From Methanofollis liminatans DSM 4140 (GTDB taxonomy: Archaea; Halobacteriota; Methanomicrobia; Methanomicrobiales; Methanofollaceae), in contig NZ_CM001555.1 of the NCBI RefSeq assembly GCF_000275865.1, positions 1,824,967 to 1,888,966 of the forward strand: a stretch of DNA of 64,000 nt, read 5' to 3'. Shown one piece after another: positions 29,308 to 48,340 of this stretch. How positions within the stretch are numbered: the stretch's first letter is position 1; the number at the start of each line of letters is the position of its first letter. Both the position numbers and the translations under genes were made by a program. Under the pieces are notes generated by a model. That model was not told the origin of the DNA and made no database searches. It worked only from the letters and a program-made list of their open reading frames with translations.

Positions 29308-32300
29308 TTAGAGCCTTCTCAGGAATAAGAAGGCTCCCAGGGCGACGAACGCAGCAAACCACGGCAGGGGAGACTGCTGGGTCGGCGCCGCGGTCGCGGG
29401 GGCAGTGGTCGCGGGGGCAGGTGTCGTTGCCGTTGCCGCCGGGGCGGTCGTCGCGACAGCGGTTTCCCCGACCCCGGCGCTCTTCTCCACCGCAATGGCG
29501 AAGTACGAGAAGCCCGGTGTTTCGGCCGAGAAATACGCAAACCCGTTTTTCTCCTCCACGAAGGTGGTCGGGAGAGCGGTCCATGCGCCGTCGACGTAGC
29601 GCATGAGGACAATGTCGCCGGTGGCGAGGCCGCGGGCGTCGAGCCAGGACGTCGGGACGGCGAACTCGATCATGGCCGAACCGATCGCCGCAGCGTCGGC
29701 GCGGTACAGGGCGATCTCCTGGATCTGGTAGGTCGCCTGCACGGGCGCCTCGATGGTGGACGGGAGGGACGCCGCCTTCACGGTGATCAGGAGATCGCTG
29801 ATGTCGTTCTTCGCGATGACGGTGATCTCTTTGACCGCCGTCTGGCTCACGACAAAGGACTTCGTCGCACCGGCTGAGACGGAGCCGGAGAACGAGGCCA
29901 CGCTCGATGACCCGCCGGAAGACGAGGAGGATCCGCTCGGGGTCGGCGAGACGGCCGAAGCCGCAGCCAGACCGAAGATCGAGAGGCCGTTCGGCGAATA
30001 TGCTTCGAAGACCATGTTGCCGTCGGCGTCGAGGCCGATGTAGGTCGTCGCCAGCACTTCAGTGGTGCCGTCTTCCGCGGACCTGATGATCTTGATTGCG
30101 TCGACACCGCCGTTGGCGTCGACCCAGGCCTGGCTCACGGCCATGCGGATCGTGGCGTCGGAGATGTCCTGGCCGTTCGTCAGGTTCGTCTTGACGATGT
30201 TGAGCGTGTAGGCGACGGCGTCGAGGTTCAGGCCGTCTTTGGAGGCGGCGAGCTGGAAGGCGCTCTGGGCGTCGGCCGAGACGTTGGCGGAGACCGTGGT
30301 CTGGACGGCGGCGCCCGCCGGGATCCCGGTCAGGTTCGCCTCGATCGAGGCGGTGACCGTGCCGAGGGCGTCGAAGATCGTGGAGACCGGGGTGGTGTTG
30401 AGGGTGATCCCGGCGACCGTGCCGTTCACGGTGCCGTTGCCGACGGTGGGAGCGCCGGTGGTCTCGATGATGAGGCTGAAGGTGTCCTCGTCTATCCGGA
30501 TGGTGTTGCCGGAGACGGTGGCGTTGGTGGCAGTGGTGTTGACCAGGACCTGCCGCGTGCCGTTGCCGTTATCCGTGATGTTGCAGCCCGGAACGTTCAG
30601 GGGCGAGTCTTCCGTCTGGTCGCCGTGCGGCGGGGTCACCGTCACCGCGGCGGTGCCGAAGATCTCGCCGACCGCGGCGCTGACCGTGGTGGTGCCGACC
30701 TTGCGGGCGGTGAAGGTGCCGGTGGCGTCAACCGTGCCGACAGTAGTATTGGAACTGGACCACGTAACAGGCGAACCGATGATAATGAAGTCCTCCTCAT
30801 CATAGGCGGTCGCCGAGAACGGTTCGTTCGTACCCTCTGCAAGGGAGACCGCCGTCGGGGAGACGGCAACCGAAACCGGTGCTCCACCACAGTCCTCCAC
30901 CGTATTGTTGACGAAGGTGTTGTTGTTCATGCCCTTCTGGATATAGCGGGGGAGGGTGACGGAGATGAGATGATTGTCAGATATCATGCAGTAATCCGCA
31001 GCATAGAGCCTGATCCCGGTATATCCACCGCTCAGGGTGTTCTGCGTGACAAGGCAGGACTGGGCGAGATAAAGATTGATACCATACGACAGGTTCTTGA
31101 TGGTATTATTGGTGAGAGTGCAGTTCGCCGCCTGCACAAACAACCCCGAGTCTCCAGATTTCGACCACAGCATCTGCACAGTGAACCCCTCGAAGGTGAC
31201 GTTGTCTGCGCTGATTGTGATGGCAGGGGTGTTTGCGGTCGAGTCATATGCACCGACGACGGTTGTCGTGTCGGCGCCGTTCTCTGACCTGATGGTGAGC
31301 GGCTTGGTGACATACACCCGCTCAACATACGTTCCGTCCTTCACGATGAGGGTGTCGCCGGCATTTGCGGCGTTGATTGCGACCTGAATCGTAGCGAAAT
31401 CACCGCTTCCATTCTCGTCGACGACGAAGGTCTTTGAGCCAGGTTCTGCGGGGATCACCGTCACCGTCGTCGAGACGGCGATATCGGCGCATCTCCCGGT
31501 GATGACCGTCGTCCCTTCCGCAAGGGGCGTCAGGACACCGTCTGCGTCAATCGTCGCGACCGATTCGTCGCTGCTGGACCAGTAGCTAGCCATGCCTTCG
31601 GTCATCTTGTTGCCGTTCTGGTCGTTCACGCTCAGGACGAACTGCCTGAACTCGCCAATTGGGACCGACGGAGATTCAGGACCAAAAGCATATACGGATG
31701 TCGGAATGGGGAGGTCATCTTCGATGCCGAAGTACCTGCCAACCGGCTGCATGAGAGGGTAGTTGTCGGTGGCGGTCCCGTAAAGTTGTGCGGGAATGTT
31801 GCTGATGCCGTTGCTATCCGTGTCGTCAAGGGCGAAGGAGCCGCCCCAGTAGTTACCTATCGGACTGGTATAGACAGATCCGCTGTAGGTGTAGGTGTAG
31901 GCCTCGTCCGAGTTCCACCTGTTGAACTCAAGGTTATTTGTGTCGACACTCAGCCTTTCGTTCTCGATAAATGAGTTTCCGAAGAAGACGTTGTTCTCTA
32001 CATTGCGGGCGAGATAGAGGGCGCAGCCAACACCTTCACGGACAAAACCGTTGTTGTAGAAGGTGTTGTTCGAAACGATACAATTCGAGGCGTAGTCCAT
32101 GTGAAGAGCGCCCATGGTGGTGTTCTGGATTACGTTGCCGGAGACGATGTCGTCGTGGGGCGTCACTTCGCCGTGACCCAGACTGACAGTTATGCCCATC
32201 AGCCAGCTGTCTGAGATGAAGTTGTTTCTGACCTCGACGTTAGAACAACCGCACAGACAAACACCGTAGTTCCCATCTGTGAAGGAGTTATTTTCGACAA

Positions 32301-35300
32301 CTCCATTATCAGAGTTATATGCGCAGACTGCTGCCTTGGCTTTAGTTACCACCGTGTTCGCGACGCGGAAAGAATGCGATCCGTCGTTGAATATTACGCC
32401 CGCTGTGTACTTATCCCCTTCACCCTCAATGGTGAATCCGTCGACAGTGACCGAATCTGAAGAGACGGTGATCGCTGTACCGCCACTGATGTGGATGGTC
32501 GTCACCGCCGCACCGGACGCCGAGCGGAGGGTGAGAGGCTTTGTGATGTTGAGAGTTTCGTTATACATGCCTGGCATGACGATGATGGTGGAACCCGCCT
32601 GAACGCCGTCGATGGCCGCCTGAATGGTGGTAAAGTTCCCACTGCCGTTCCCGTCGACGTACCACTCCTTCGGGGCCGCCACAACGGTCACCGTTGCGTT
32701 GCCCTCGACACCGCCGGATGATGCCGTGATCGTCGCGTTCCCCTCGCTGAGTGCAGCGAAGAGACCGGTCGAGTCGATCGTCCCGACGGTTTCGTTGTCG
32801 ATCGTCCATGAATACGTGATGTTCTCCACCGGGTCGCCGTACTGGTCGATTCCTGAAGCCGTGAAGAGCTGCGTCCTGCCGATGGCAAGCGTGGTGCTGG
32901 ACGGGGTGATCGTAATATCAACAAGGGCAGGTGCTGCAGCCTCAATGGCGTAAATGTTGCTGTCGCTCGACCCGATGTAGAGGGTGCCGTCCGCACCGAT
33001 GGAGGGGGTGTAGAAGAACCTCGGGCTCACGGGGTCCAGCAACGTCCATTTCAGGGTGCCGTCGGAACCGATCGCATAGAGGTACCGGTCGTTTCTGTCG
33101 GTGGACGGGATATAGACCGTGCCCCGGGCATCGACGGCCGGAGCCTCCGTGACGGTACCGGTGGTATTATAGGACCACTTCAGGGTGCCGTCCGGGTTGA
33201 CGGCGTTGACGGTCTTGCTGGCCGAACCCGCGTAGATCGTGCCGTCAGGCCCTATCGCCGGGGGTGCAACGGCGCCGCCGGTGGCATACGACCACTTCAG
33301 GGTACCGTCGGGGTTGACGGCGTAGAGGCTGCAGCCGGCCGAGGCGGTGTAGATAGTGCCGTCGGAACCGATCGCAGGGGCATATTTGACCGCACCGCCG
33401 GTGGCGTACGACCATTTCAGAGTGCCGTCCGGGTTCAAGGCGTAGAGACTGCTGTCGGCGGAGCCGGTGTAGATCGTGCCGTCAAGGCCGATTGCCGGCG
33501 CGGCGGTGACAGAGCCGCCAGTCGTGAAGTTCCATTTCTCGGTGCCGTCGGGGTTCAGAGCGTAGATCTTCGTGTCGGCGGAGCCGGCGTAGATCGTGCC
33601 GTCGGTACCGATCGCCGGAGCCGCGGAAACATCCCCTCCGGTCGTGAACGTCCACTTCACCGTGCCGTTCGGATTCAGGGCATAGATCATGCCGTAACGG
33701 CAGCCAAAGTAGACGGTGCCGTCGGAACCGATCGCCGCGGCCGAGTAGATCTGCTGGGGAGCAGTGTACGACCACTTCAGCGTGCCGTTCGGGTGCAGGG
33801 CATAGAAGATCTTGTTCCTCGAACCGGCGTAGACGGTGCCGTCGGCATCGACGACCGGCTGTACCATGAAGAAACTGCTGGCCTTGTACGTCCATGCTAT
33901 CTCCGGGATCGCGGGACCCGTGGCCGAACTAAGACCGGTGTGCTGGAGGTCGTGGCCGTACATCGGCCACGCCGAGGCGGCAAGGCCACCCGACTGATCA
34001 CCGACGGTGACGGTGGCGGTGCCTTCGACCGCACCGTACGAGGCGGTGACCGTGGTCGTGCCGGCGGCGAGGGACATGAAGTAACCGGTGGCGTTCACCG
34101 TGCCGACCGTCTCGTTCGAACTCGACCAAGAGAAGGTGATGCCGGTCATCTCGTTGCTGTCGGCGTCATAGGCGGTGGCGGTGAACTGCCGCTCGTCGCC
34201 GACGGCCAGGGCGGCGGCCGCGGGAACGACCGCGATCCGGGAGGGAGCAAGGCCTGCGCCGATGACCGAGTAGCCGCTCGTCGCCTTGGGCGCCAGGACG
34301 GCGTTGGTCCAGGCGATCATGTCGTCGCCGTTGTTTGAGTTCTGGCAGTAGGCGTAGACGTTGAACGCAGCAAAGGTGTCGAGGTTCTCGACGGTGTAGT
34401 TGATCCGCACCGCACCCCGGTTCTCAAGGTCAGCGTTCGGTCTGAGCACACCGGCGTTCAGGTCGATGAACATCACCTGGAAGGTGTTCGCCGTGTCGCT
34501 CATGTTCTGGCCGAAATGGATCGGGTAGTCGAAGCCGTTTCCGGTCGGTTTCCAGAGCTGCGGGCCGTACCTGAAGTCCTCCTTCGTGAAGGTCTCGCTG
34601 AGGGAGACGGGCTGGTACGTCACGTTGTCAAGAGACGGGGGCTGGTTGCTTACGGGGTTCGGTGTCCAAGTGTAGCCGTCGGCGGTGATGTGCAGCCTGA
34701 AGTCGTCGGAGATCGTGCCGTTCACGGCGACCATGAGGAGGATCTCGTCCTCGTAGCCCTTGCCGCCCGAGTCGGTCCCATAGAAGGTGCCGCTCTGGTT
34801 TTCAGAAACCGTTACCTGACCGAAGTTTACTGCCGGGTCGGTGGAGATATGCAGGGCGTTGAGGCCGCGGTCGTATCCCTCGAACCTGACGTTGTAGGTG
34901 TTGTTCCCGAAGGCGTTGTACTTCACGCCAGCGTCGTTGGCGACTTTGAAGAAGACGTTGTTGTAGTCGGAGAGGGGCTGGGGGCCCGAGGGGGCAGCGG
35001 TGACGGTCACGGTGGCCGTGCCCTCGACCGTGTCGTTTGCCGCGGCGATCGTGGTCGTGCCGGCGGCGAGGGCGGTAAAGTAACCGGTGGCGTTCACCGT
35101 GCCGACGGTCTCGTCGTTGCTCGACCATTCATAGGTGAGGTCGCTCATCGCCCTGTCGTTCTGGTCGAGGGCGGTGGCGGTAAACTGCATCGAGGTGCCT
35201 ATCTCGACCTCGGTTGTCGCGGGCGTGACCTCGATCGAGGTCAGCACCGGCGGGATCCCGATAACAGAATAGCCGCTCGTGCCCGCGGCAGTCTCGCCGG

Positions 35301-36123
35301 CGGCATTGACGCGGTTGGTCCAGGAGATGCCCTGGCCCTGGTTGGCGGCGAGACACCAGCCGTAGGCGTTGAACGAGGCGAAAGTCTCCAGGTTCTCGAA
35401 GGAGTACTCAACCTTTGCACCGCCGTTGTCGGTGAGGGTGGCGCCGCTGAACTTCGAGGGGTACATGTTCCCGACGTCGAGGTCGATGAACATCAGGCTG
35501 AAGGTGTTGCTCGTGTCGGTGACGTCGTGGTACTCGTAGAGGGGCAGGCCGGGCGGGAGATAGGGCTCGGCCTTGCCCGGGCCGGGCTTCCAGGTCTGCG
35601 GGCCGTACAGGAAGTCCTCCTTCGTGAAGGTCTCGTTCACCGCACCCTCGATATAGGTGTAGTTCATCGGGACCTGATTGGTGACCGAAGAGGGCGTCCA
35701 GGTGTAGCCGCTCGTCTTGACGTGCACGGCGAAGTCGTCAGGGACCGTGCCGTTCACGGCCAGGAGGAGGACGATGGCGTCGTCAAAACCGCGGCCGCCG
35801 GTGTTAGAAACATAAAAGACACCGGACTGGTCGCTGCTCGTCGTCACCTGGCCATAGGCGTTGTCCGCATCAGCGGTGATGTGGAGCTCGTTCAAGCCAC
35901 CGCCGTCGGCCTTGATGTAATACGTGTTGTTCGGTCCGCCGTACGCGGCGCCGTCGAGGTTGAACTTCACGCCGTCCGTGTTCGAGACGTTGATGAAGAC
36001 GTGGCGGGTCTGTTCCAGCGGTTCGGCCGAAGCCGGAACGATACTGAAGAGAAGGAGCAGGAGGAGCCCTGCGGCGATCCACCGCAGGTGCCCTCTGCCC
36101 GTTTTCGATAATCTGGTCGTCAT
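29308..36123 (-). CDS. Giant mosaic surface protein: surface modules, Big_2, PQQ-type propeller, beta-helices
   Basis: 2271 residues from the ATG at 36123; the in-frame GTG at 36135 forms part of the AGGTGA ribosome binding site. Order: signal peptide (about 1-34); two-part surface domain (38-285); Big_2 (291-375); second two-part surface domain (391-620); Big_2 (628-705); a PQQ-like beta-propeller (about 716-1058) of about eight blades with repeats such as GTIYAGSADTKIYALNPDG; Big_2 (1066-1145); NosD-type beta-helix (1153-1470); Big_2 (1481-1555); second beta-helix (1563-1735); Big_2 (1748-1820); two PGF-pre-PGF-like domains (about 1841-2050 and 2076-2190); Thr/Ala/Pro stalk; and the anchor QQSPLPWFAAFVALGAFLFL-RR. 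It is the largest protein in the window. Adhesion, carbohydrate binding or S-layer association are possible; none is proven. Confidence 0.78.
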   Translation of the reverse strand: MTTRLSKTGRGHLRWIAAGLLLLLLFSIVPASAEPLEQTRHVFINVSNTDGVKFNLDGAAYGGPNNTYYIKADGGGLNELHITADADNAYGQVTTSSDQSGVFYVSNTGGRGFDDAIVLLLAVNGTVPDDFAVHVKTSGYTWTPSSVTNQVPMNYTYIEGAVNETFTKEDFLYGPQTWKPGPGKAEPYLPPGLPLYEYHDVTDTSNTFSLMFIDLDVGNMYPSKFSGATLTDNGGAKVEYSFENLETFASFNAYGWCLAANQGQGISWTNRVNAAGETAAGTSGYSVIGIPPVLTSIEVTPATTEVEIGTSMQFTATALDQNDRAMSDLTYEWSSNDETVGTVNATGYFTALAAGTTTIAAANDTVEGTATVTVTAAPSGPQPLSDYNNVFFKVANDAGVKYNAFGNNTYNVRFEGYDRGLNALHISTDPAVNFGQVTVSENQSGTFYGTDSGGKGYEDEILLMVAVNGTISDDFRLHITADGYTWTPNPVSNQPPSLDNVTYQPVSLSETFTKEDFRYGPQLWKPTGNGFDYPIHFGQNMSDTANTFQVMFIDLNAGVLRPNADLENRGAVRINYTVENLDTFAAFNVYAYCQNSNNGDDMIAWTNAVLAPKATSGYSVIGAGLAPSRIAVVPAAAALAVGDERQFTATAYDADSNEMTGITFSWSSSNETVGTVNATGYFMSLAAGTTTVTASYGAVEGTATVTVGDQSGGLAASAWPMYGHDLQHTGLSSATGPAIPEIAWTYKASSFFMVQPVVDADGTVYAGSRNKIFYALHPNGTLKWSYTAPQQIYSAAAIGSDGTVYFGCRYGMIYALNPNGTVKWTFTTGGDVSAAPAIGTDGTIYAGSADTKIYALNPDGTEKWNFTTGGSVTAAPAIGLDGTIYTGSADSSLYALNPDGTLKWSYATGGAVKYAPAIGSDGTIYTASAGCSLYAVNPDGTLKWSYATGGAVAPPAIGPDGTIYAGSASKTVNAVNPDGTLKWSYNTTGTVTEAPAVDARGTVYIPSTDRNDRYLYAIGSDGTLKWTLLDPVSPRFFYTPSIGADGTLYIGSSDSNIYAIEAAAPALVDITITPSSTTLAIGRTQLFTASGIDQYGDPVENITYSWTIDNETVGTIDSTGLFAALSEGNATITASSGGVEGNATVTVVAAPKEWYVDGNGSGNFTTIQAAIDGVQAGSTIIVMPGMYNETLNITKPLTLRSASGAAVTTIHISGGTAITVSSDSVTVDGFTIEGEGDKYTAGVIFNDGSHSFRVANTVVTKAKAAVCAYNSDNGVVENNSFTDGNYGVCLCGCSNVEVRNNFISDSWLMGITVSLGHGEVTPHDDIVSGNVIQNTTMGALHMDYASNCIVSNNTFYNNGFVREGVGCALYLARNVENNVFFGNSFIENERLSVDTNNLEFNRWNSDEAYTYTYSGSVYTSPIGNYWGGSFALDDTDSNGISNIPAQLYGTATDNYPLMQPVGRYFGIEDDLPIPTSVYAFGPESPSVPIGEFRQFVLSVNDQNGNKMTEGMASYWSSSDESVATIDADGVLTPLAEGTTVITGRCADIAVSTTVTVIPAEPGSKTFVVDENGSGDFATIQVAINAANAGDTLIVKDGTYVERVYVTKPLTIRSENGADTTTVVGAYDSTANTPAITISADNVTFEGFTVQMLWSKSGDSGLFVQAANCTLTNNTIKNLSYGINLYLAQSCLVTQNTLSGGYTGIRLYAADYCMISDNHLISVTLPRYIQKGMNNNTFVNNTVEDCGGAPVSVAVSPTAVSLAEGTNEPFSATAYDEEDFIIIGSPVTWSSSNTTVGTVDATGTFTARKVGTTTVSAAVGEIFGTAAVTVTPPHGDQTEDSPLNVPGCNITDNGNGTRQVLVNTTATNATVSGNTIRIDEDTFSLIIETTGAPTVGNGTVNGTVAGITLNTTPVSTIFDALGTVTASIEANLTGIPAGAAVQTTVSANVSADAQSAFQLAASKDGLNLDAVAYTLNIVKTNLTNGQDISDATIRMAVSQAWVDANGGVDAIKIIRSAEDGTTEVLATTYIGLDADGNMVFEAYSPNGLSIFGLAAASAVSPTPSGSSSSSGGSSSVASFSGSVSAGATKSFVVSQTAVKEITVIAKNDISDLLITVKAASLPSTIEAPVQATYQIQEIALYRADAAAIGSAMIEFAVPTSWLDARGLATGDIVLMRYVDGAWTALPTTFVEEKNGFAYFSAETPGFSYFAIAVEKSAGVGETAVATTAPAATATTPAPATTAPATAAPTQQSPLPWFAAFVALGAFLFLRRL

Positions 36124-36558
36124 GTATGCATTCACCTGCCATTTCAGGAGAAAAACAGAATCTTGACGGGAATTGTCAATATGTACTGTTTAACATCAAG
36201 AAATGATCAATGAAATAATTAGATCAAGATTACAGAATATATATGTTTTTATTCTGGTTCAAGTTAATGACATAAAATTGACCAGATAGAAAAAAGGAAG
36301 ACAATAATGGCATAAAAGCAGCGAAAAAGCCCCCCTACAATCCTTTCAGAGAGGGAGGGTGGGGATGGGCATCCCCGACAGCATGACGATTGCGAGTGAA
36401 ACCGGAGAGCGACGTGCAGTGCTGAAGAGTGTCATGAAACCAGGACATCGACCTGATCTCTCCCCGGCAGGGTATTGTGGCGCCTCGTGCGTATGATCTC
36501 CCTGTGGCGATTTGTGTGTATCCCTCGATGGTGTGGTCAGCCAGTCTGTTCAGATTTG

Positions 36559-41136: not shown

Positions 41137-41841
41137 ATGACCGTATACATCGCCATGGACGACACCGACAACCTCGAGTCCAGAGGGACCGGACGGCTGG
41201 CCCGGAGCGTCGGCACAGCCCTCGCAGAGAATTTCAGGGTGTTCGGCATCACCCGTCACCAGCTCTATGTCAACGAGGCAATACCCTACACCTCGCACAA
41301 CTCCTGCGCCGTCATCCACCTCCCCGATGCGGTCGAGCGCGACATCCCGGATATCTTCTCGCAGGCGCGCGAGATGATGCTCGACGACTTCATCGAGGGA
41401 AGCGACCCCGGCCTCGCCGTCGCCGACGCATCCCGGATCTCTCCCGCCCTCATGGCCTTTGGCAGGGACGCAAAATCGACCGTGCTCACCCAGGAAAAGG
41501 CCAGGACCCTGGCAAAAAATCTCGGCATCAGGCTTGAAGGGCTCGGCGGAACCGAAGACGGCGTCATCGGATCGATGGCCGGGCTCGGGCTTGCATGCGC
41601 CGGAAACGACGGCAGGTTCCTCCAGGTCGGCCGCATACGGGAGATCACCGGCCCGGCCGAAGTTCCTGACCTCCTTGCCGCGGGTCTGGACGGCATCTAC
41701 ACCCTCGACGGAAGGGCCGTCACCTCAGGGTTCGTCAGGACCGACGCCGGAAAATCAGTCAAACCCTGCCCGGTCGGCGGAAAGATCATCCTCTTCGTCG
41801 AAGAGAATAGCGGCGACCTGATCGCGGTGAAGAGAGACTGA
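41137..41841 (+). CDS. TiaS-like protein (tRNA-modifying synthetase N-domain family)
   Basis: 234 residues. The start MTVYIAMDDTDNLESRGTGR and the SCAVIHL and PDPGLAVAD-like segments resemble the N-terminal DDTD-type kinase domain of TiaS, which makes agmatidine in tRNA-Ile. It is much shorter than full TiaS (about 420 residues) and lacks its OB-fold and zinc ribbon, so it is unlikely to be the housekeeping enzyme. No ribosome binding site is apparent, so it may be leaderless. It precedes the secreted protein by one base and is thus the first gene of the ECF transporter operon. A small-molecule kinase or ATP-dependent ligase role is conceivable; unassigned. Confidence 0.55.
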   Translation: MTVYIAMDDTDNLESRGTGRLARSVGTALAENFRVFGITRHQLYVNEAIPYTSHNSCAVIHLPDAVERDIPDIFSQAREMMLDDFIEGSDPGLAVADASRISPALMAFGRDAKSTVLTQEKARTLAKNLGIRLEGLGGTEDGVIGSMAGLGLACAGNDGRFLQVGRIREITGPAEVPDLLAAGLDGIYTLDGRAVTSGFVRTDAGKSVKPCPVGGKIILFVEENSGDLIAVKRD

Positions 41842-41842
41842 G

Positions 41843-42652
41843 ATGGATTTTAGAAAGAGGATAATCACCGCATTCGCCCTGCTTACCCTCTTTACCATCA
41901 TTGCATTCGGGATCCAGGTCTATATCGAGGGCGAAACCATGGCAGTGACAGGCGAAGCGGCCCCCCTCCCCCTCGCCCAATCGGTGATCACCCTCTCCGG
42001 GGCCGACTTCCTGTACGGCCCGCAGGACTGGCGCCCCTATGCGGCGCCGCTCTCCCTCAACACCCTGCCAGGCACCCCTGATGGGCACGAGTGGTACTTC
42101 TGCTTCGTCCTCCTCAACGACACCCCGTACGGGGGCAACCCGGCCCTCTTCAGGAGACAGGCGGTCTCTGTGAACTATACCTTCGAGAATCTCGCCGGAA
42201 CCGCAGCCTTTTATCCCTACGGCACCACGACCCTCCCGGTCACCTCCAGAACATCCAGGCAGGACGGCTACGGCAGCAGCGGATATATTGTGACCGGCAC
42301 CGCCCCCGCAGGCGAGGCAGCGCCGCAGGCCGCCCCCCTGGAGCGGAGCAACCTGGTGAGGGCCAGGCTTGCGAACACCAAAGGCCTCGGCCCCGACGAG
42401 ATCGCCGCTGGGACGATCGACCTCTGGTTCCCATCCGAAGGGGGCGGGCAGGACGCCCTCCACCTCACCACCGACCTGGACAAACGGAAAGGGGAGATCG
42501 TCACCGGCGCACCGGCCTCGGGCCGATTTTATGTCACCCACACCGGCGGAAGTCGCCTCAACCTCGTCTGCCTGCTGATCGCCGTCGACCGTCCGCAACC
42601 CGAGAACTTCTCCTTACGGCTGGAGACCCGTCCTGCGGAGGCGGCATGGTGA
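41843..42652 (+). CDS. Secreted or anchored surface-domain protein of the ECF operon
   Basis: 269 residues. One N-terminal hydrophobic segment (about 8-28) could be an uncleaved anchor. The rest is the two-part surface domain of the giant proteins at 26915-29182 and 29308-36123, but with the halves swapped: first SGADFLYGPQDWRPY, VNYTFENLAGTAAFYPYG and SGYIVTG, then the GGGQDALHLTTD, ASGRFYVTHTGGS and IAVDRPQPENFSLRL half. Its start is one base after the TiaS-like stop and its end overlaps the S-component start by seven bases, so it is made with the transporter. It may capture the substrate outside the cell, although ECF transporters normally need no separate binding protein. Confidence 0.65.
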   Translation: MDFRKRIITAFALLTLFTIIAFGIQVYIEGETMAVTGEAAPLPLAQSVITLSGADFLYGPQDWRPYAAPLSLNTLPGTPDGHEWYFCFVLLNDTPYGGNPALFRRQAVSVNYTFENLAGTAAFYPYGTTTLPVTSRTSRQDGYGSSGYIVTGTAPAGEAAPQAAPLERSNLVRARLANTKGLGPDEIAAGTIDLWFPSEGGGQDALHLTTDLDKRKGEIVTGAPASGRFYVTHTGGSRLNLVCLLIAVDRPQPENFSLRLETRPAEAAW

Positions 42653-43188
42653 CCAGATCTTATTTCACCCTCTACGAGACGGCCGTGCTCTCGCTCTGCG
42701 GCGCCCTGGTCTTCCTGTCAAAGGCGTTCATCACCCTCTCCCTCCACCTCCCAGGCCATTCGTACCTCTTCGTCGCCATCCCCTTCGTCGTGGGCTGCGG
42801 CGTCGTCAGGAAAGCCGGATCCGGCACCTATATCGGGCTTGTCGGCGGACTCCTGTCATCCTTTTTCGGCTTTGAAGCCCTCCACCTCCTCGACGTCTTC
42901 AAGTACCTGGCAATGGGCTTGACCATCGATATCGTCGGCGTCACCTTCTCCCACCGCTTCGATCACCCGGCCGTCGGCTTCATCGCCGGCGCCGCCGGGA
43001 GTGTCGTGAAGATGGTGGTGAACTACGCCGTCCACTATCTCCTCGGTGTTCCCGCCACCTTCATCCTCATCGGCATCGGCCTCACATCGGTGACGCACCT
43101 GATATTCGGCGGGATAGGCGGAGTGATCGCCGCCCTGATCATCGCCCGTCTGATGAGGGCCGGGGTGATCGGAGATGACAGGGCCTGA
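42646..43188 (+). CDS. ECF transporter substrate-binding (S) component
   Basis: 180 residues with about six hydrophobic segments, the size of an ECF S component. GGAGGCGG precedes the ATG. Notable segments are ETAVLSLCGALVFLSKAF, HLPGHSYLFVAIPFVVG and SVVKMVVNYAVHYLLGVP. There is no N-terminal Met-His of the CbiM/NikM type, so nickel or cobalt is not indicated. It is followed by the A-A' ATPase and T genes, making a complete group I ECF set. The substrate is unknown; neighbours suggest a compound linked to the nitrogenase-like operon. Confidence 0.75.
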   Translation: MVTRSYFTLYETAVLSLCGALVFLSKAFITLSLHLPGHSYLFVAIPFVVGCGVVRKAGSGTYIGLVGGLLSSFFGFEALHLLDVFKYLAMGLTIDIVGVTFSHRFDHPAVGFIAGAAGSVVKMVVNYAVHYLLGVPATFILIGIGLTSVTHLIFGGIGGVIAALIIARLMRAGVIGDDRA

Positions 43189-44623
43189 ACCGGCGGTCAG
43201 GATCGAGGGGCTCACCTGCACCTATCCCCCCGGGCGCAGGGGGCCGCAGCCTCCAGCCCTCCGCGACCTCTCCCTGACGATATGGCCCGGCGAGTTTGTC
43301 CTGCTGGTCGGGCAATCGGGGTCAGGCAAGTCCACCCTGCTGCGCTGCGTCAACGGGCTCATCCCTCATTCCCACCGTGGCCGGATGGACGGAACAGTGG
43401 TCGTCGCCGGGATGGACACGCGGCAGCGCGAGGTCTGCGAGATCGCACGGAAGGTCGGCACCGTTTTCCAGAACCCGGAGCACCAACTCTTTTCCGGGAA
43501 CGTCGAGAGCGAACTCGCCTTCGGCCCCGAACACCTCGGCATCGATGCGGCGCTCATCAGGGAGCGGGTCGCCCGCGCCGCAGAGGCGACCGGGATCGGC
43601 CACCTCATGGGCCGCGAGGAGAACGAGCTCTCGTGGGGAGAGCGCCAGCGCCTCGCCATCGCCTCAGTGCTGGCGATGGAGCCCACAATCCTCCTGCTCG
43701 ACGAACCGGTATCCGGGCTCGACGCGGATGGGGCGGGGCGTCTCATCGCCACCCTCACCCGCCTCAACCGGGAGGAGGGTCTGACCGTGATCGTTGCTGA
43801 GCACCGGTTCGAGCGCTTCCTCCCCGCGTGCAGCCGCTTCATCGCCCTCGAAGCGGGCGCGATCGTCTACGACGGCCCGCCGGCGGCATTTGCCCGGGCA
43901 AACCCGCCGCACCCTGCCCCGGACCTCACTCTGCCGGGAGGACACGGAACGCCCGCCCTCGTCTTCGAGGAGATCGCCTTCACCTATCCAGGAAAAGACC
44001 GCCCGGTCCTCGACGGCGCCAGCCTCACCGTCAGAGCGGGCGAGATCGTCGTCCTCACCGGGCCGAACGGTTCAGGAAAAACCACGCTGCTGCGCCACGC
44101 AAACGGGCTGCTTCAGCCCGACCGCGGGCGGGTGATCGTCATGGGCCGGGCGATCGCCGGACAGCCAGTGGCCGCCGTTGCCGCGGAGGTCGGCTACCTC
44201 TCCCAGCACGCCGACACCCATCTCTTCGCCGAAACGGTGGAGGAGGAGATCGCTTTCGCCCCGAAAAACCTCGGGTTTTCCAGCGAGAAAAAAGAGGACT
44301 GCATCGCACGGGCGATTGAAGGTCTCGGCCTCGCCGCAATCGGCAGGCAGGCGATGCCCCTCGCCCTCTCGGTCGGTGAGAAGCAGCGTGTCGCCATCGC
44401 GAGCATCCTTGCCATGGAAACGCCGGTCATCGTCCTCGACGAACCGACACTCGGCCTCGATGCAGGGAGAAAGAGAGACCTCGCGGCGATCCTGAGAGGG
44501 TATGCGGAGGAGGGAAGAGGCGTCCTGGTCTCAACCCACGACGCCGGTTTTGCATCCCTCCTCGGCGGCCGGCAGGTCTCCCTCAGAAACAGCCGTATCG
44601 CCGCCGCGGAGGAAGAACGGTGA
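43175..44623 (+). CDS. Fused ECF transporter ATPase (EcfA-A')
   Basis: 482 residues with two complete ABC ATPase domains. First: Walker A GQSGSGKST, Q-loop FQNPEHQLF, signature LSWGERQR, Walker B ILLLDEPVSGLD. Second: GPNGSGKTT, Q-loop-like LSQHADTHLF, signature LSVGEKQR and IVLDEPTLGLD. The FQNP-x-x-Q-L-F segment is typical of ECF ATPases. Both halves look catalytically competent. The fusion replaces the separate EcfA1 and EcfA2 of other organisms. It overlaps the S gene by 14 bases and its stop overlaps the T start (GTGA). Confidence 0.9.
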   Translation: MTGPEPAVRIEGLTCTYPPGRRGPQPPALRDLSLTIWPGEFVLLVGQSGSGKSTLLRCVNGLIPHSHRGRMDGTVVVAGMDTRQREVCEIARKVGTVFQNPEHQLFSGNVESELAFGPEHLGIDAALIRERVARAAEATGIGHLMGREENELSWGERQRLAIASVLAMEPTILLLDEPVSGLDADGAGRLIATLTRLNREEGLTVIVAEHRFERFLPACSRFIALEAGAIVYDGPPAAFARANPPHPAPDLTLPGGHGTPALVFEEIAFTYPGKDRPVLDGASLTVRAGEIVVLTGPNGSGKTTLLRHANGLLQPDRGRVIVMGRAIAGQPVAAVAAEVGYLSQHADTHLFAETVEEEIAFAPKNLGFSSEKKEDCIARAIEGLGLAAIGRQAMPLALSVGEKQRVAIASILAMETPVIVLDEPTLGLDAGRKRDLAAILRGYAEEGRGVLVSTHDAGFASLLGGRQVSLRNSRIAAAEEER

Positions 44624-45402
44624 AGCAAAAGGCGGGTGTCATGTTCGTTCCCGGCGACTCGCCGCTTCACCGCCTCAACCCGGCGGCGAAGGCTGCAGCC
44701 CTCGTCCTCCTCAGTGCGGCGGTGCTGGTGACCGCCAGGCCGGTCCCGATCTTCTGTATCCTGCTCCTGACCCTCGCCGCTGCAACGCTCTCCGGCATCG
44801 TAATGCCGCTCCTCCGGTCATTTCGCCTCCTGATCCCCCTTCTTGTCTTCATCCTGATCATCGATGCCTTTTTCCCCCGCATTGCCGGCGGCCCGGTCTG
44901 GTTCTCCGCCGACATCTGGATCTTCCACCCCACCCTCTCCGCGGCGGGCGTGCTCTTCTCCCTCGCGATGGGCCTGCGCCTCCTCGCCGTCGGTGGGGCG
45001 TCCTTCCTCTTCATCATGACAACGCGCTACGCCGACTTCGTCAGGAGCCTGCGGGCGCTCGGCCTTCCGGCCACCCTCTCGTTCTCCCTCGGCTACGCCC
45101 TCAGATCAGTCTCGGCGCTGACCGAAGACATCGGAAACATCACGGACGCACAGCGGTCCCGCGCCTTCTCCATCGACCGCAACACTCTCCTCAAAAACAG
45201 GCACACCATTCTGGCGCTCTTCATCCCGGCGACCGTCTCGGTCCTCTCGCGTGCGCGGCAGGTTGCCGATGCGATGCAGTGCCGGGGCTTCGGGTGCACC
45301 GACCGGCCGACCTGTTACCGGCGGCACCCCTTCGATGCGGCCGACACCCTGCTCGTCCTCGTCGCCGCCCTCTGCATCCCGTTCGCCCTCCTATGCCCCT
45401 GA
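44620..45402 (+). CDS. ECF transporter transmembrane (T) component
   Basis: 260 residues with about five hydrophobic helices. It starts at GTG, overlapping the ATPase stop. The family's N-terminal SPLHRLNPAAK motif and the two coupling motifs (AQRSRAF and MQCRGF, of the A-R-x type) that touch the ATPases are visible. It completes the S-AA'-T set. Its stop lies inside the last codons of the convergent nitrogenase-like D gene (12-base overlap), so the two operons share their 3' ends. Confidence 0.87.
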   Translation: MKQKAGVMFVPGDSPLHRLNPAAKAAALVLLSAAVLVTARPVPIFCILLLTLAAATLSGIVMPLLRSFRLLIPLLVFILIIDAFFPRIAGGPVWFSADIWIFHPTLSAAGVLFSLAMGLRLLAVGGASFLFIMTTRYADFVRSLRALGLPATLSFSLGYALRSVSALTEDIGNITDAQRSRAFSIDRNTLLKNRHTILALFIPATVSVLSRARQVADAMQCRGFGCTDRPTCYRRHPFDAADTLLVLVAALCIPFALLCP

Positions 45403-46503
45403 CGGGCGGCGGGAGCGGCACGCCATGAGCACGTCCTCGATGAAGGCAAGAGAGCCCTCGATGCCCGCGATCGGACGGGCACGGAGGCGCACCCTGCCCC
45501 GCTGCGGAAACGTCAATCCCACAGACGGGATCTCAGGCGCCAGGGCCTGCTCGTACGACGAGCCCAGGATCAGGTCGGGTCCAGCCTCAGCGATCAACGC
45601 ACCGATCTCCTCCAGAGAGGTGACCGCCCCCTTCCCGGTCCTGGGGGCAGAGACAACGATCTCGGCGTCGAGGAAACGCCTCAGGGAGGCGGCGGCAAAC
45701 GCTGCATAGGAAGCCTCTGCAAAGACCGCCACCGCCGGGGGATCGAAGCGGGAGAGATATTTGTCGCAGGCCCGGTCGATCTGCTCCGCGGCTTCATCGG
45801 TCTCCAGGAGAACCGGCCCGACGTCAAGACGGCAGAGATCGGAGAGACGCGAGAACGTCGCCCTCGTCGCATCCAGGCCGAGGAGGTCGCCAGCAGATCG
45901 GCCGACGCCGGCGGAAAGGCCAGGGTTGGTGCCGACCGAGAAGCGGCCGCACACCTTCACCCGCTCTACCGGCCCGGCCGCAAGCGCCGCCGCCACTGTC
46001 CCACCCGCCATCCTGATCAGCCGTTCGGCTTCAAGCAGATTTCCCCGGTAGAAGGGGTCGATCGGGTTGAGGCCATCGACCGTGATCCCGGCTGCATCCT
46101 CGCCCACCGCGGGGCCGAGCGCCGCCATCGCCCGCCGGTATCCCTCCTCCATCCCGCCGGCAAACCCCGGGCTGTCGATGACGATCACGTCCTCATCCTC
46201 GAGTATCGCGGCGATGTCCTCGCCGGTCACCGACGGGACGCAGGTCAGGACGACTGCCACACGCTTCCCCCTCCCTCTGATCTCGTCGACCACCTGACGA
46301 AGCCGCTCCTCTGAGCCGAAGATCACCTCCTCTTCCAGGATCATGGTCGCGTGAACCGGCCTCTGGATGAGCGATGCCGGATAAAAGTAGCAGCCCGACG
46401 AACCGTGGATGACCACGTCGATCCCGGAAAATCCGGAGAGGCAGGAGACCGCCCCGCACATGGCACACGGCCATATCGGGTTGGCACAGGGGTGTTCAGG
46501 CAT
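45391..46503 (-). CDS. Nitrogenase-like catalytic subunit, NifD-type (group IV-like)
   Basis: 370 residues, much shorter than NifD (about 480-500). The N-terminal region has WPCAMCGAVSCLSGF and then HGSSGCYF, and a third site VVLTCVPSVTGEDI. These match the three spaced cysteines that hold the P-cluster or its [4Fe-4S] counterpart in NifD-like proteins. The family reduces substrates with electrons from a NifH-like partner, encoded two genes upstream. It overlaps the preceding K-like gene by eight bases. It does not read like CfbD of coenzyme F430 synthesis (I recall HGPSGC with RPS and FxHxRLLEEDG there), and CfbD acts without a K partner. Substrate unknown. Confidence 0.75.
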   Translation of the reverse strand: MPEHPCANPIWPCAMCGAVSCLSGFSGIDVVIHGSSGCYFYPASLIQRPVHATMILEEEVIFGSEERLRQVVDEIRGRGKRVAVVLTCVPSVTGEDIAAILEDEDVIVIDSPGFAGGMEEGYRRAMAALGPAVGEDAAGITVDGLNPIDPFYRGNLLEAERLIRMAGGTVAAALAAGPVERVKVCGRFSVGTNPGLSAGVGRSAGDLLGLDATRATFSRLSDLCRLDVGPVLLETDEAAEQIDRACDKYLSRFDPPAVAVFAEASYAAFAAASLRRFLDAEIVVSAPRTGKGAVTSLEEIGALIAEAGPDLILGSSYEQALAPEIPSVGLTFPQRGRVRLRARPIAGIEGSLAFIEDVLMACRSRRPSGA

Positions 46504-47539
46504 GGATCCGCCGCCTCCAGCGGTGGAGCAGACGCCTGATCCCGGCAGTCCCCACCGGAGGACTGTACGGCAGGGAAAGACCGGCGCCGCCGGTATCGGC
46601 CCTCAGGTCAAGCGCCGCCATCACGCGCCTGACCGGGGCGTACTCCAGCGACCCCAGGGTCAGGGGGTCAGGGGAGACCGCCGCCCCGCGCAGGTCGGCA
46701 AAAGACGAGAGCATCTCGGCCTGATGAACTCGCTCAGCCTCGACCACGCCTTCGGGATCGATGCCCATGATCGCGGCGGCGCCCTCCAGAAACGCCACCC
46801 CCCCCTCAAGCCCGATAGGAAATGAATCGATATACGGCGTCCCGAAGCGCTGCTTCAGCGCCTCGCCGACCGGCCTGAGGGCCGGTTCCCTGAGGATATT
46901 GAGACTTCCCGAGCCGAGACGCGCAAAGTCGGCGAACCGCATCTTCCGGACAAACCGAACACCGACCCTGAGCCCGAGCAGCCCGAGCAGTCGTTCCACC
47001 TCGGCAAAATTCTCCTCGACCTCAAACTCAAGATTCTTCTCCCCGATGACGGTGACCGTCCGCTCCCGCACGCCTCCGTCCCCGGCGAGGGCGACAAGAG
47101 TATTCAGCGCCGCGTTCAGGCCGTCAGAGAAGGCGCCGCCAAGAAACCCGGCTGTCGGGACCGAGATCACCGGCAGACCGAAGTCACGGGCGCAGACAGA
47201 ACAGACGTCGTCCCCGATCGTCTCGGTGATGCAGGTGGAGAGCACGAAGATCGCTGCCGGCCCGTCGTCGGCGACGCGCTGAAGAGTCCTGGCGAGCATC
47301 TCCTCGCCCCCGAAGATGATCTCGCTCTCGGCAAGACCGGTCGAGACCAGCGGGGGGAGGGCACAATCGTCCTGCTCTGCGGCGATCGCATGGAGAAGAG
47401 AGAAATTATGGTGTGTGCACCCGCTTGGCCCGTGGACGACCGTGACAGCGTCCCGTACCTGCGTCAGAACAGAGAGTGCGCCGGTGAGGGTGCACCCCTC
47501 ATACCTGAGCGAACCTGCGGGCGAGTTCTTCGAGTTCAT
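46496..47539 (-). CDS. Nitrogenase-like subunit, NifK-type (group IV-like)
   Basis: 347 residues from the ATG at 47539; a TTG three codons upstream is an alternative and neither has a clear ribosome binding site, so translation is probably coupled to the NifH-like gene, which it overlaps by 41 bases. Three cysteine sites fit the NifK pattern: [27 protein letters not shown] and [12 protein letters not shown] (compare NifK's TTC-x-x-E-x-IGDD). It lacks the N-terminal extension and the long insertions of NifK. With the D-like gene it would form a heterotetramer. Confidence 0.75.
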
Positions 47540-48317
47540 CAATTTCAAGGGGTGTCGGTATCGACGTCCGCGTATTCTTCATGATATCTTCGGCAAGGCG
47601 ACGGTACACGCCTGCCTGCTCAGATTCAGGGGCGTATTCCATCACCGTCTGCCGGTTCAGCTCGGCGAGGGTCACGGTGCGGGACCGCGGGATATAGGCC
47701 ACCATCGCGGAGTTGATCCGGGCCGCAAACTCCCTGACGAGGTCTTCCTCCCCTTCCATGTTCTTTGAGTTGCAGATCACGCCGGCGAGGGCGCAGGTTT
47801 GCCTCGACCGCTTTGCGAGCCTGGCGATCGCCTTTGCGATGTTGTTCGCCGCATACAGGGACATCAACTCACCCGAGGTGATCAGGTACACCTCCTCTGC
47901 ATACCCCTCGCGCATCGGCATAGCAAACCCCCCGCAGACGACGTCGCCGAGGACATCGTACACGATCACGTCGCCGTTCAGCGCACCGAGACGTTCGAGG
48001 AGCTGGAAGGTGGCGATGATCCCCCGGCCCGCACAGCCGATACCCGGTTCAGGGCCGCCGGCTTCGACACAACGGACACCGGCATACCCATTAAAAACGA
48101 CGTCGTCGGTGGCGATCGCAGCGTCTCCCCGCTCCCTGACCAGGTCGAGAACGGTTGGTATCCAGGCACCGTGCATCAGCATCCGCGTAGAATCGTGCTT
48201 GGGGTCGCAGCCGATCTGCAGGATGTCGAGTCCGGTCTCACCCAGAGCAGCGGAGAGGTTCGCGGAGGTGGTGGACTTGCCAATCCCGCCCTTCCCGTAG
48301 AGGGCGATCTGTTTCAT
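47499..48317 (-). CDS. NifH-like nitrogenase reductase (ATP-dependent electron donor)
   Basis: 272 residues from the ATG at 48317 ([11 protein letters not shown]); the ATG at 48329 is less likely because the TATA box is only about 25 bases upstream of 48317. P-loop GKGGIGKST, switch GCDPKHDST (most homologues have K-A-D), and both [4Fe-4S] ligands: [12 protein letters not shown] and [13 protein letters not shown]. It should hydrolyse ATP and pass single electrons to the partner D/K-like proteins. First gene of the three-gene operon. Confidence 0.88.
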
Positions 48318-48340
48318 GTCATCTCTCATGGGCGTGCATC

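Follow-up and report, generated by a model that had tools for sequence, protein, structure and literature searches.

Which substrate is reduced by a compact nitrogenase-like operon of a methanogen, and which iron (Fe) protein delivers the electrons? The operon in question lies in a stretch of 64,000 nucleotides from Methanofollis liminatans DSM 4140 (the window; C1:1,824,967-1,888,966 of the 2.475 Mb single-contig genome) and consists of three genes, named H, alpha and beta here (Table 1). A sequence-only reading had described it as an H-K-D operon with partner proteins of 347 and 370 amino acids (aa) and had assigned it to an uncharacterised nitrogenase-like reductase. Gene coordinates and Pfam matches to PF00142 and PF00148 far over cut-off (H 360, alpha 187 and beta 120 bits) bore out the three genes and their sizes, and the class was correct as well. 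We propose that the operon combines CfbC, which serves as Fe protein in F430 synthesis, with a separate alpha/beta component found only in Methanomicrobiales, and that this component acts as an ATP-dependent reductase which borrows CfbC and whose substrate is most likely a tetrapyrrole of the F430 type; we give this proposal about an even chance.

H is very probably CfbC, because it passes the CfbC model, no other candidate exists in the genome and the same locus is kept where alpha and beta are missing. On the NCBIfam model NF033200 it reached 420.5 bits (cut-off 402), whereas the NifH of the nif genes stayed under the cut-off with 388.5 bits. Both Fe-S cysteines that had been noted in this NifH-like protein are present as the invariant C99 and C132. 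The whole genome encodes two full-strength NifH-family proteins, H and the nif NifH, and has a complete nif cluster at C1:534-542k. The cfb cluster is located at about C1:1,684.9-1,688.9k. Its cfbD was identified by the respective model (501 bits, cut-off 268), and three further genes, placed from gene order and sequence, are presumably cfbA, cfbE and cfbB. No cfbC was found in this cluster, and the search of the genome revealed no candidate besides H. The suggested check for canonical cfbC and cfbD elsewhere in the genome thus came out positive for cfbD and negative for cfbC, and H does not belong to a new system alone.

Other genomes of the order point in the same direction. In two complete, single-contig genomes without nif genes (G012 and G046) H is the sole Fe protein, alongside cfbD, alpha and beta. 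Exactly one NifH-family protein was detected in each of G012, G046, G116, G050 and G208, and the alpha/beta-less genomes G050 and G208 carry only H and cfbD. The solitary H gene of G050 and of the tested genomes of lineage g39, which we take to be Methanospirillum-like, is located in the same fprA-prk/trkH-H block as at the loci with alpha and beta. Across the order H is 65-77% and CfbD 65-73% identical, which corresponds to an equal rate of divergence. In the Fe-protein tree, which was left unrooted (the BchL/BchX outgroup branches were too long), H proteins from alpha/beta-bearing genomes form one clade (97/92). For annotators this means that a NifH-like gene at this locus should be read as cfbC and is no sign of nitrogen fixation.

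The phylogenetic tree separated alpha and beta into two clades of their own (100/100 each), apart from CfbD, NifDKEN and the Bch subunits. In profile searches alpha was nearest to the NifE and NifD alpha chains and beta mostly nearest to NifK-type beta chains. The former labels are therefore swapped: the true gene order is H-D-K, because the 'K-like' protein is of the alpha type and the 'D-like' protein of the beta type. The three cysteine sites noted in each partner correspond to C19, C44 and C106 of alpha and to C13, C38 and C88 of beta, all of which are invariant in 21 loci of the order. In the alignment every alpha row and every beta row contains three P-cluster-type cysteines, compared with two in CfbD. 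The column of the cysteine that binds the iron-molybdenum cofactor (FeMoco) or the L-cluster (NifD C275/NifE type) is empty in every alpha row, and the C-terminal region of alpha is much shorter than in NifE and nitrogenase. AlphaFold models of alpha and beta, with predicted local distance difference test values of 87 and 90, show folds that match NifEN, nitrogenase and the dark-operative protochlorophyllide oxidoreductase (DPOR).

Several known enzymes could be rejected on this basis. As had been argued, neither subunit is CfbD: both score 40-46 bits on TIGR03282 (cut-off 268), they belong to separate clades, and the true cfbD is encoded elsewhere. The small size of the partners, which had been used as an argument, does not exclude CfbD by itself, since CfbD also has about 360 aa. 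Nitrogenase NifDK or an alternative nitrogenase, and likewise any other FeMoco- or L-cluster enzyme, were discarded due to the missing Cys275-type ligand. For DPOR and chlorophyllide oxidoreductase (COR), alpha reached 21-71 bits against BchN/B/Y/Z cut-offs of 420-529 and was not joined to these subunits in the tree. MarHDK was rejected since the alpha column homologous to the MarD cysteine for the [Fe8S9C] cluster is empty (ligand conservation according to PMC12552129). By its Fe protein, its PF00148 alpha/beta pair, the P-site cysteines and a position outside NifDKEN and Bch, the system can be classed as nitrogenase-like (Nfl, group IV in the wide sense).

Alpha and beta co-evolve: because their distances correlate (r 0.89, or 0.77 once H is removed), they are predicted to form a heteromer of their own. 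The genes for H and alpha overlap by 41 nucleotides (nt) and those for alpha and beta by 8 nt, so translation of the three is probably coupled. Alpha starts with the ATG at 47539. In G082 and G110 a TGA immediately 5' of the corresponding ATG fixes this start; a selenocysteine read from the in-frame TGA of these two genes is an artefact.

The pair is widespread within a single order. Strong alpha matches were obtained in 35 of the 40 Methanomicrobiales genera examined, and two of the remaining five are represented by single incomplete drafts. Among 393 genomes across the phylum all 81 alpha matches at E <= 1e-40 fall within the Methanomicrobiales, and the labels of the family's named loci are Methanomicrobiales or broader archaeal ones, with loci of Methanofollis as the best matches. 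Three lineages lack both alpha and beta (g39, g20 and g38). Of the 80 named loci, 78 have H next to alpha and 52 have beta adjoining on the same strand; the remainder includes Methanoculleus-type loci, in which beta lies in inverted orientation at a distance of about 2 kb, and loci truncated at contig ends. Apart from the Methanoculleus-type loci, the gene order H-alpha-beta was kept in all genera sampled. A search of plasmids yielded relatives only of the nifD/nifE type. One metagenome-assembled genome (G108) contains two diverged H-alpha loci (L215 and L216), with alpha 51-52% identical to that of the window in each case; this is either a duplication or a mixed bin.

The proposed mechanism starts with reduced CfbC, which together with ATP would dock alternately on CfbD, for F430 synthesis, and on the alpha/beta heteromer. 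In the latter, the 3+3 cysteines would hold a P-site Fe-S cluster, which would take up single electrons and hand them on to an organic substrate. Since alpha has no FeMoco/L-cluster ligand, this substrate is predicted to bind directly in a pocket on the alpha side, in the manner of DPOR or CfbD. A tetrapyrrole seems most likely, probably a nickel compound of the F430 type in need of an extra or repairing reduction, because the nearest relatives adjoin CobN and BtuFCD-type genes, the Fe protein is shared with F430 synthesis and no cofactor ligand is present. A more specific version, which we consider unlikely, is an order-specific enzyme sharing CfbC that performs an undescribed reduction of F430 itself, leading to a more reduced variant for the methyl-coenzyme M reductase (MCR) of Methanomicrobiales or to the repair of oxidised F430, for example of 12,13-didehydro-F430, an oxidation product of F430.

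The nearest relatives in the tree (98/93 on the alpha side) are systems in which H is fused to alpha and which possess their own uptake and chelatase genes. They were found in the alpha/beta-less Methanospirillum-like genomes. Two such loci (L161:3115-9868 and L168:1144-11698) encode an H-alpha fusion of 728-734 aa and a beta subunit next to BtuF/FecCD/ABC-type uptake genes, and the cassette of L168 additionally contains a CobN/Mg-chelatase-like protein. Judged by their genes, these cassettes are likely to serve tetrapyrrole uptake and reduction.

A number of points weigh against the proposal of a tetrapyrrole reductase borrowing CfbC. Since the Methanospirillum-like genomes and G050 do without alpha and beta, the pair is dispensable for F430 as such. 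Identity of alpha and beta across the order is 35-48%, a faster divergence than that of H and CfbD, which points to a role that is under weaker constraint or in the course of change. Like those of Mar, the six cysteines might instead bind a true P-cluster. On the beta side, grouping with the fusion systems has low support (86/20), and these systems have three cluster cysteines in alpha and one in beta. The Fe-protein tree has three clusters, made up of the Methanomicrobiales H proteins, the Methanosarcinales-type CfbC and NifH; the identity of H as CfbC draws on model match, elimination and synteny, not on this tree. Finally, substrate and reaction of alpha/beta are predictions.

Among the alternatives, the one that survives best, though we regard it as rather improbable, makes alpha and beta helper subunits of the F430 cyclase step: in Methanomicrobiales CfbC would act with CfbD and alpha/beta on Ni-sirohydrochlorin a,c-diamide, and the three double-bond reductions would be divided up. 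CfbC as the only shared partner, the equal conservation of H and CfbD and the tight linkage of alpha to cfbC would fit this division of labour. On the other hand, CfbC and CfbD alone are sufficient in vitro (PMC7242693), relatives without alpha and beta retain just these two proteins, and CfbD has lost no cysteine in the genomes with alpha/beta. With still lower probability, the pair could work like NifEN, as a scaffold for the maturation of a complex Fe-S cofactor such as the [8Fe-9S-C] clusters involved in MCR activation, and H would be its Fe protein. NifE is indeed the top-scoring model for alpha, and L-cluster-like clusters take part in MCR activation (PMC12176620); however, the cluster cysteine of NifE/NifD is absent from every alpha sequence, and the C-terminal part falls far short of the length seen in NifE. 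We judge it similarly improbable that the substrate of alpha and beta is a small molecule other than a tetrapyrrole, converted for example by C-S cleavage as in MarHDK, with the help of a P-cluster and an unusual active-site cluster. The 3+3 cysteines resemble NifDK and MarDK (PMC12552129) and the fold matches include structures of methylthio-alkane reductase, but the L-cluster cysteine is absent in alpha, cysteine ligands are present in MarDK (PMC12552129), and the neighbouring genes include none of sulfur metabolism.

A replacement of CbiJ by alpha/beta, as an ATP-dependent cobalt-precorrin-6A reductase of B12 synthesis, is very improbable. The reaction type would fit, and CbiJ was found in 0 of 231 Methanomicrobiales genomes compared with CbiD in 193 of 231. 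The co-occurrence test did not support the idea: in G050, G208 and G162 CbiD is present while CbiJ and alpha/beta are both absent, and G006 and G096 have alpha/beta without CbiD. CbiJ was searched for with PF02571; the control M. acetivorans also lacks CbiJ and has CbiD. The cobalt-precorrin-6A reductase of Methanomicrobiales with CbiD is not accounted for by CbiJ.

In the window the operon converges with genes of an energy-coupling factor (ECF) transporter, and the sequence-only reading had assumed that this transporter imports a compound which the reductase modifies. The transporter genes and their 3' overlap with the operon (12 nt between beta and the T component) were found as described, the S component by a weak match only. 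ECF genes adjoin the operon in G008 and G004 too, both of the genus of the window. The functional link is largely refuted and hardly credible, because, in a comparison of 20 genomes and 80 named loci, the region downstream of beta has no ECF genes in the closest relative (91% identity) or in any of the 17 loci from other genera, and the linkage was seen in 1 of the 80 named loci. As the linkage is limited to this genus, the transporter gives no clue to the substrate of the reductase. The exported protein encoded in the ECF operon is 28-34% identical (E down to 1.5e-14) to parts of a 2275-aa surface protein at 29308-36135, which carries repeats of domains found in the exported protein.

Table 1. 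Genes of the operon and its surroundings, with positions counted from the first nucleotide of the window.
Feature	Position	Strand	Basis or remark
H, NifH-family Fe protein, 276 aa, very probably CfbC	47499-48329	-	NF033200 (CfbC) match over cut-off; sole non-nif Fe protein of the genome
alpha ('K-like' in the sequence-only reading), NifD-NifE-type subunit, 347 aa; 3 cluster cysteines, no FeMoco/L-cluster cysteine	46496-47539	-	
beta ('D-like' in the sequence-only reading), NifK-NifN-type subunit, 370 aa; 3 cluster cysteines	45391-46503	-	
ECF T component, CbiQ family	44620-45402	+	PF02361, 93.5 bits; not conserved at the locus
ECF fused A-A' ATPase	43175-44623	+	TIGR04521/TIGR04520 over cut-off, two stretches; not conserved at the locus
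Putative ECF S component	42646-43188	+	weak PF09819 match, 20.3 bits, below cut-off
Membrane-anchored exported protein, member of the ECF operon	41843-42652	+	domains in common with the giant surface protein 29308-36135
TiaS/methanogenesis-marker-11-related protein, 234 aa; outside the H-alpha-beta system	41137-41841	+	well below curated cut-offs

Two further proteins came to light in other genomes. An orphan NifE-like protein of 406 aa (L165:498-1718), encoded in a genome without nif genes, retains, besides three cluster cysteines, one of the C275 type (LNIVVCEPS) and is a possible L-cluster carrier; comparably sized second matches elsewhere in the order may be of the same kind. A 694-aa protein (L164:4145-6229), from a genome without NifH besides CfbC, has a NifN/NifK-like C-terminal half (residues 374-676); its N-terminal half gave no NCBIfam match.

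As a rule, descriptions of nitrogenase-like systems include a dedicated Fe protein. Throughout this methanogen order, the one Fe protein of an essential pathway seems to work with two different catalytic partners. If alpha and beta act on F430 or another tetrapyrrole, they would add a step still missing from the cofactor chemistry behind methane formation; the enzymes that install the F430 modifications are unknown (PMC9081873). In addition, a compact pair with P-cluster cysteines and no ligand for an active-site cluster is useful for the debate on the origin of nitrogenase. No description of a cfbC-linked alpha/beta pair was found in the open-licence literature. The class is already known; what looks new is this member, together with its distribution and the sharing of its Fe protein.

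The 'yellow' clades of nitrogenase-like proteins (Dos Santos et al. 2012; PMC3464626) resemble the pair in their adjacent alpha and beta genes, whose products have three P-cluster cysteines apiece and lack both FeMoco ligands, but the published text describes no order-wide pair in a cfbC operon and no shared Fe protein. MarHDK has the same 3+3 P-cluster cysteines and differs in retaining the [Fe8S9C] ligand (PMC12552129). With DPOR (BchLNB) and COR (BchXYZ) the system has in common an Fe protein and an alpha/beta heteromer without FeMoco-type ligand, and the beta model fits DPOR well (template modelling score 0.83 to 8vqj_D). In contrast, DPOR uses three cysteines and one aspartate, COR differs again, the subunits described here are shorter, and photosynthesis genes are absent. 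CfbC/CfbD shares with the operon very probably the Fe protein itself, and further the subunit size (about 350-370 aa for alpha and beta) and the lack of a FeMoco/L-cluster ligand. In contrast to CfbD, alpha and beta are two distinct paralogues with three cluster cysteines each instead of two, in a genome that has its own cfbD.

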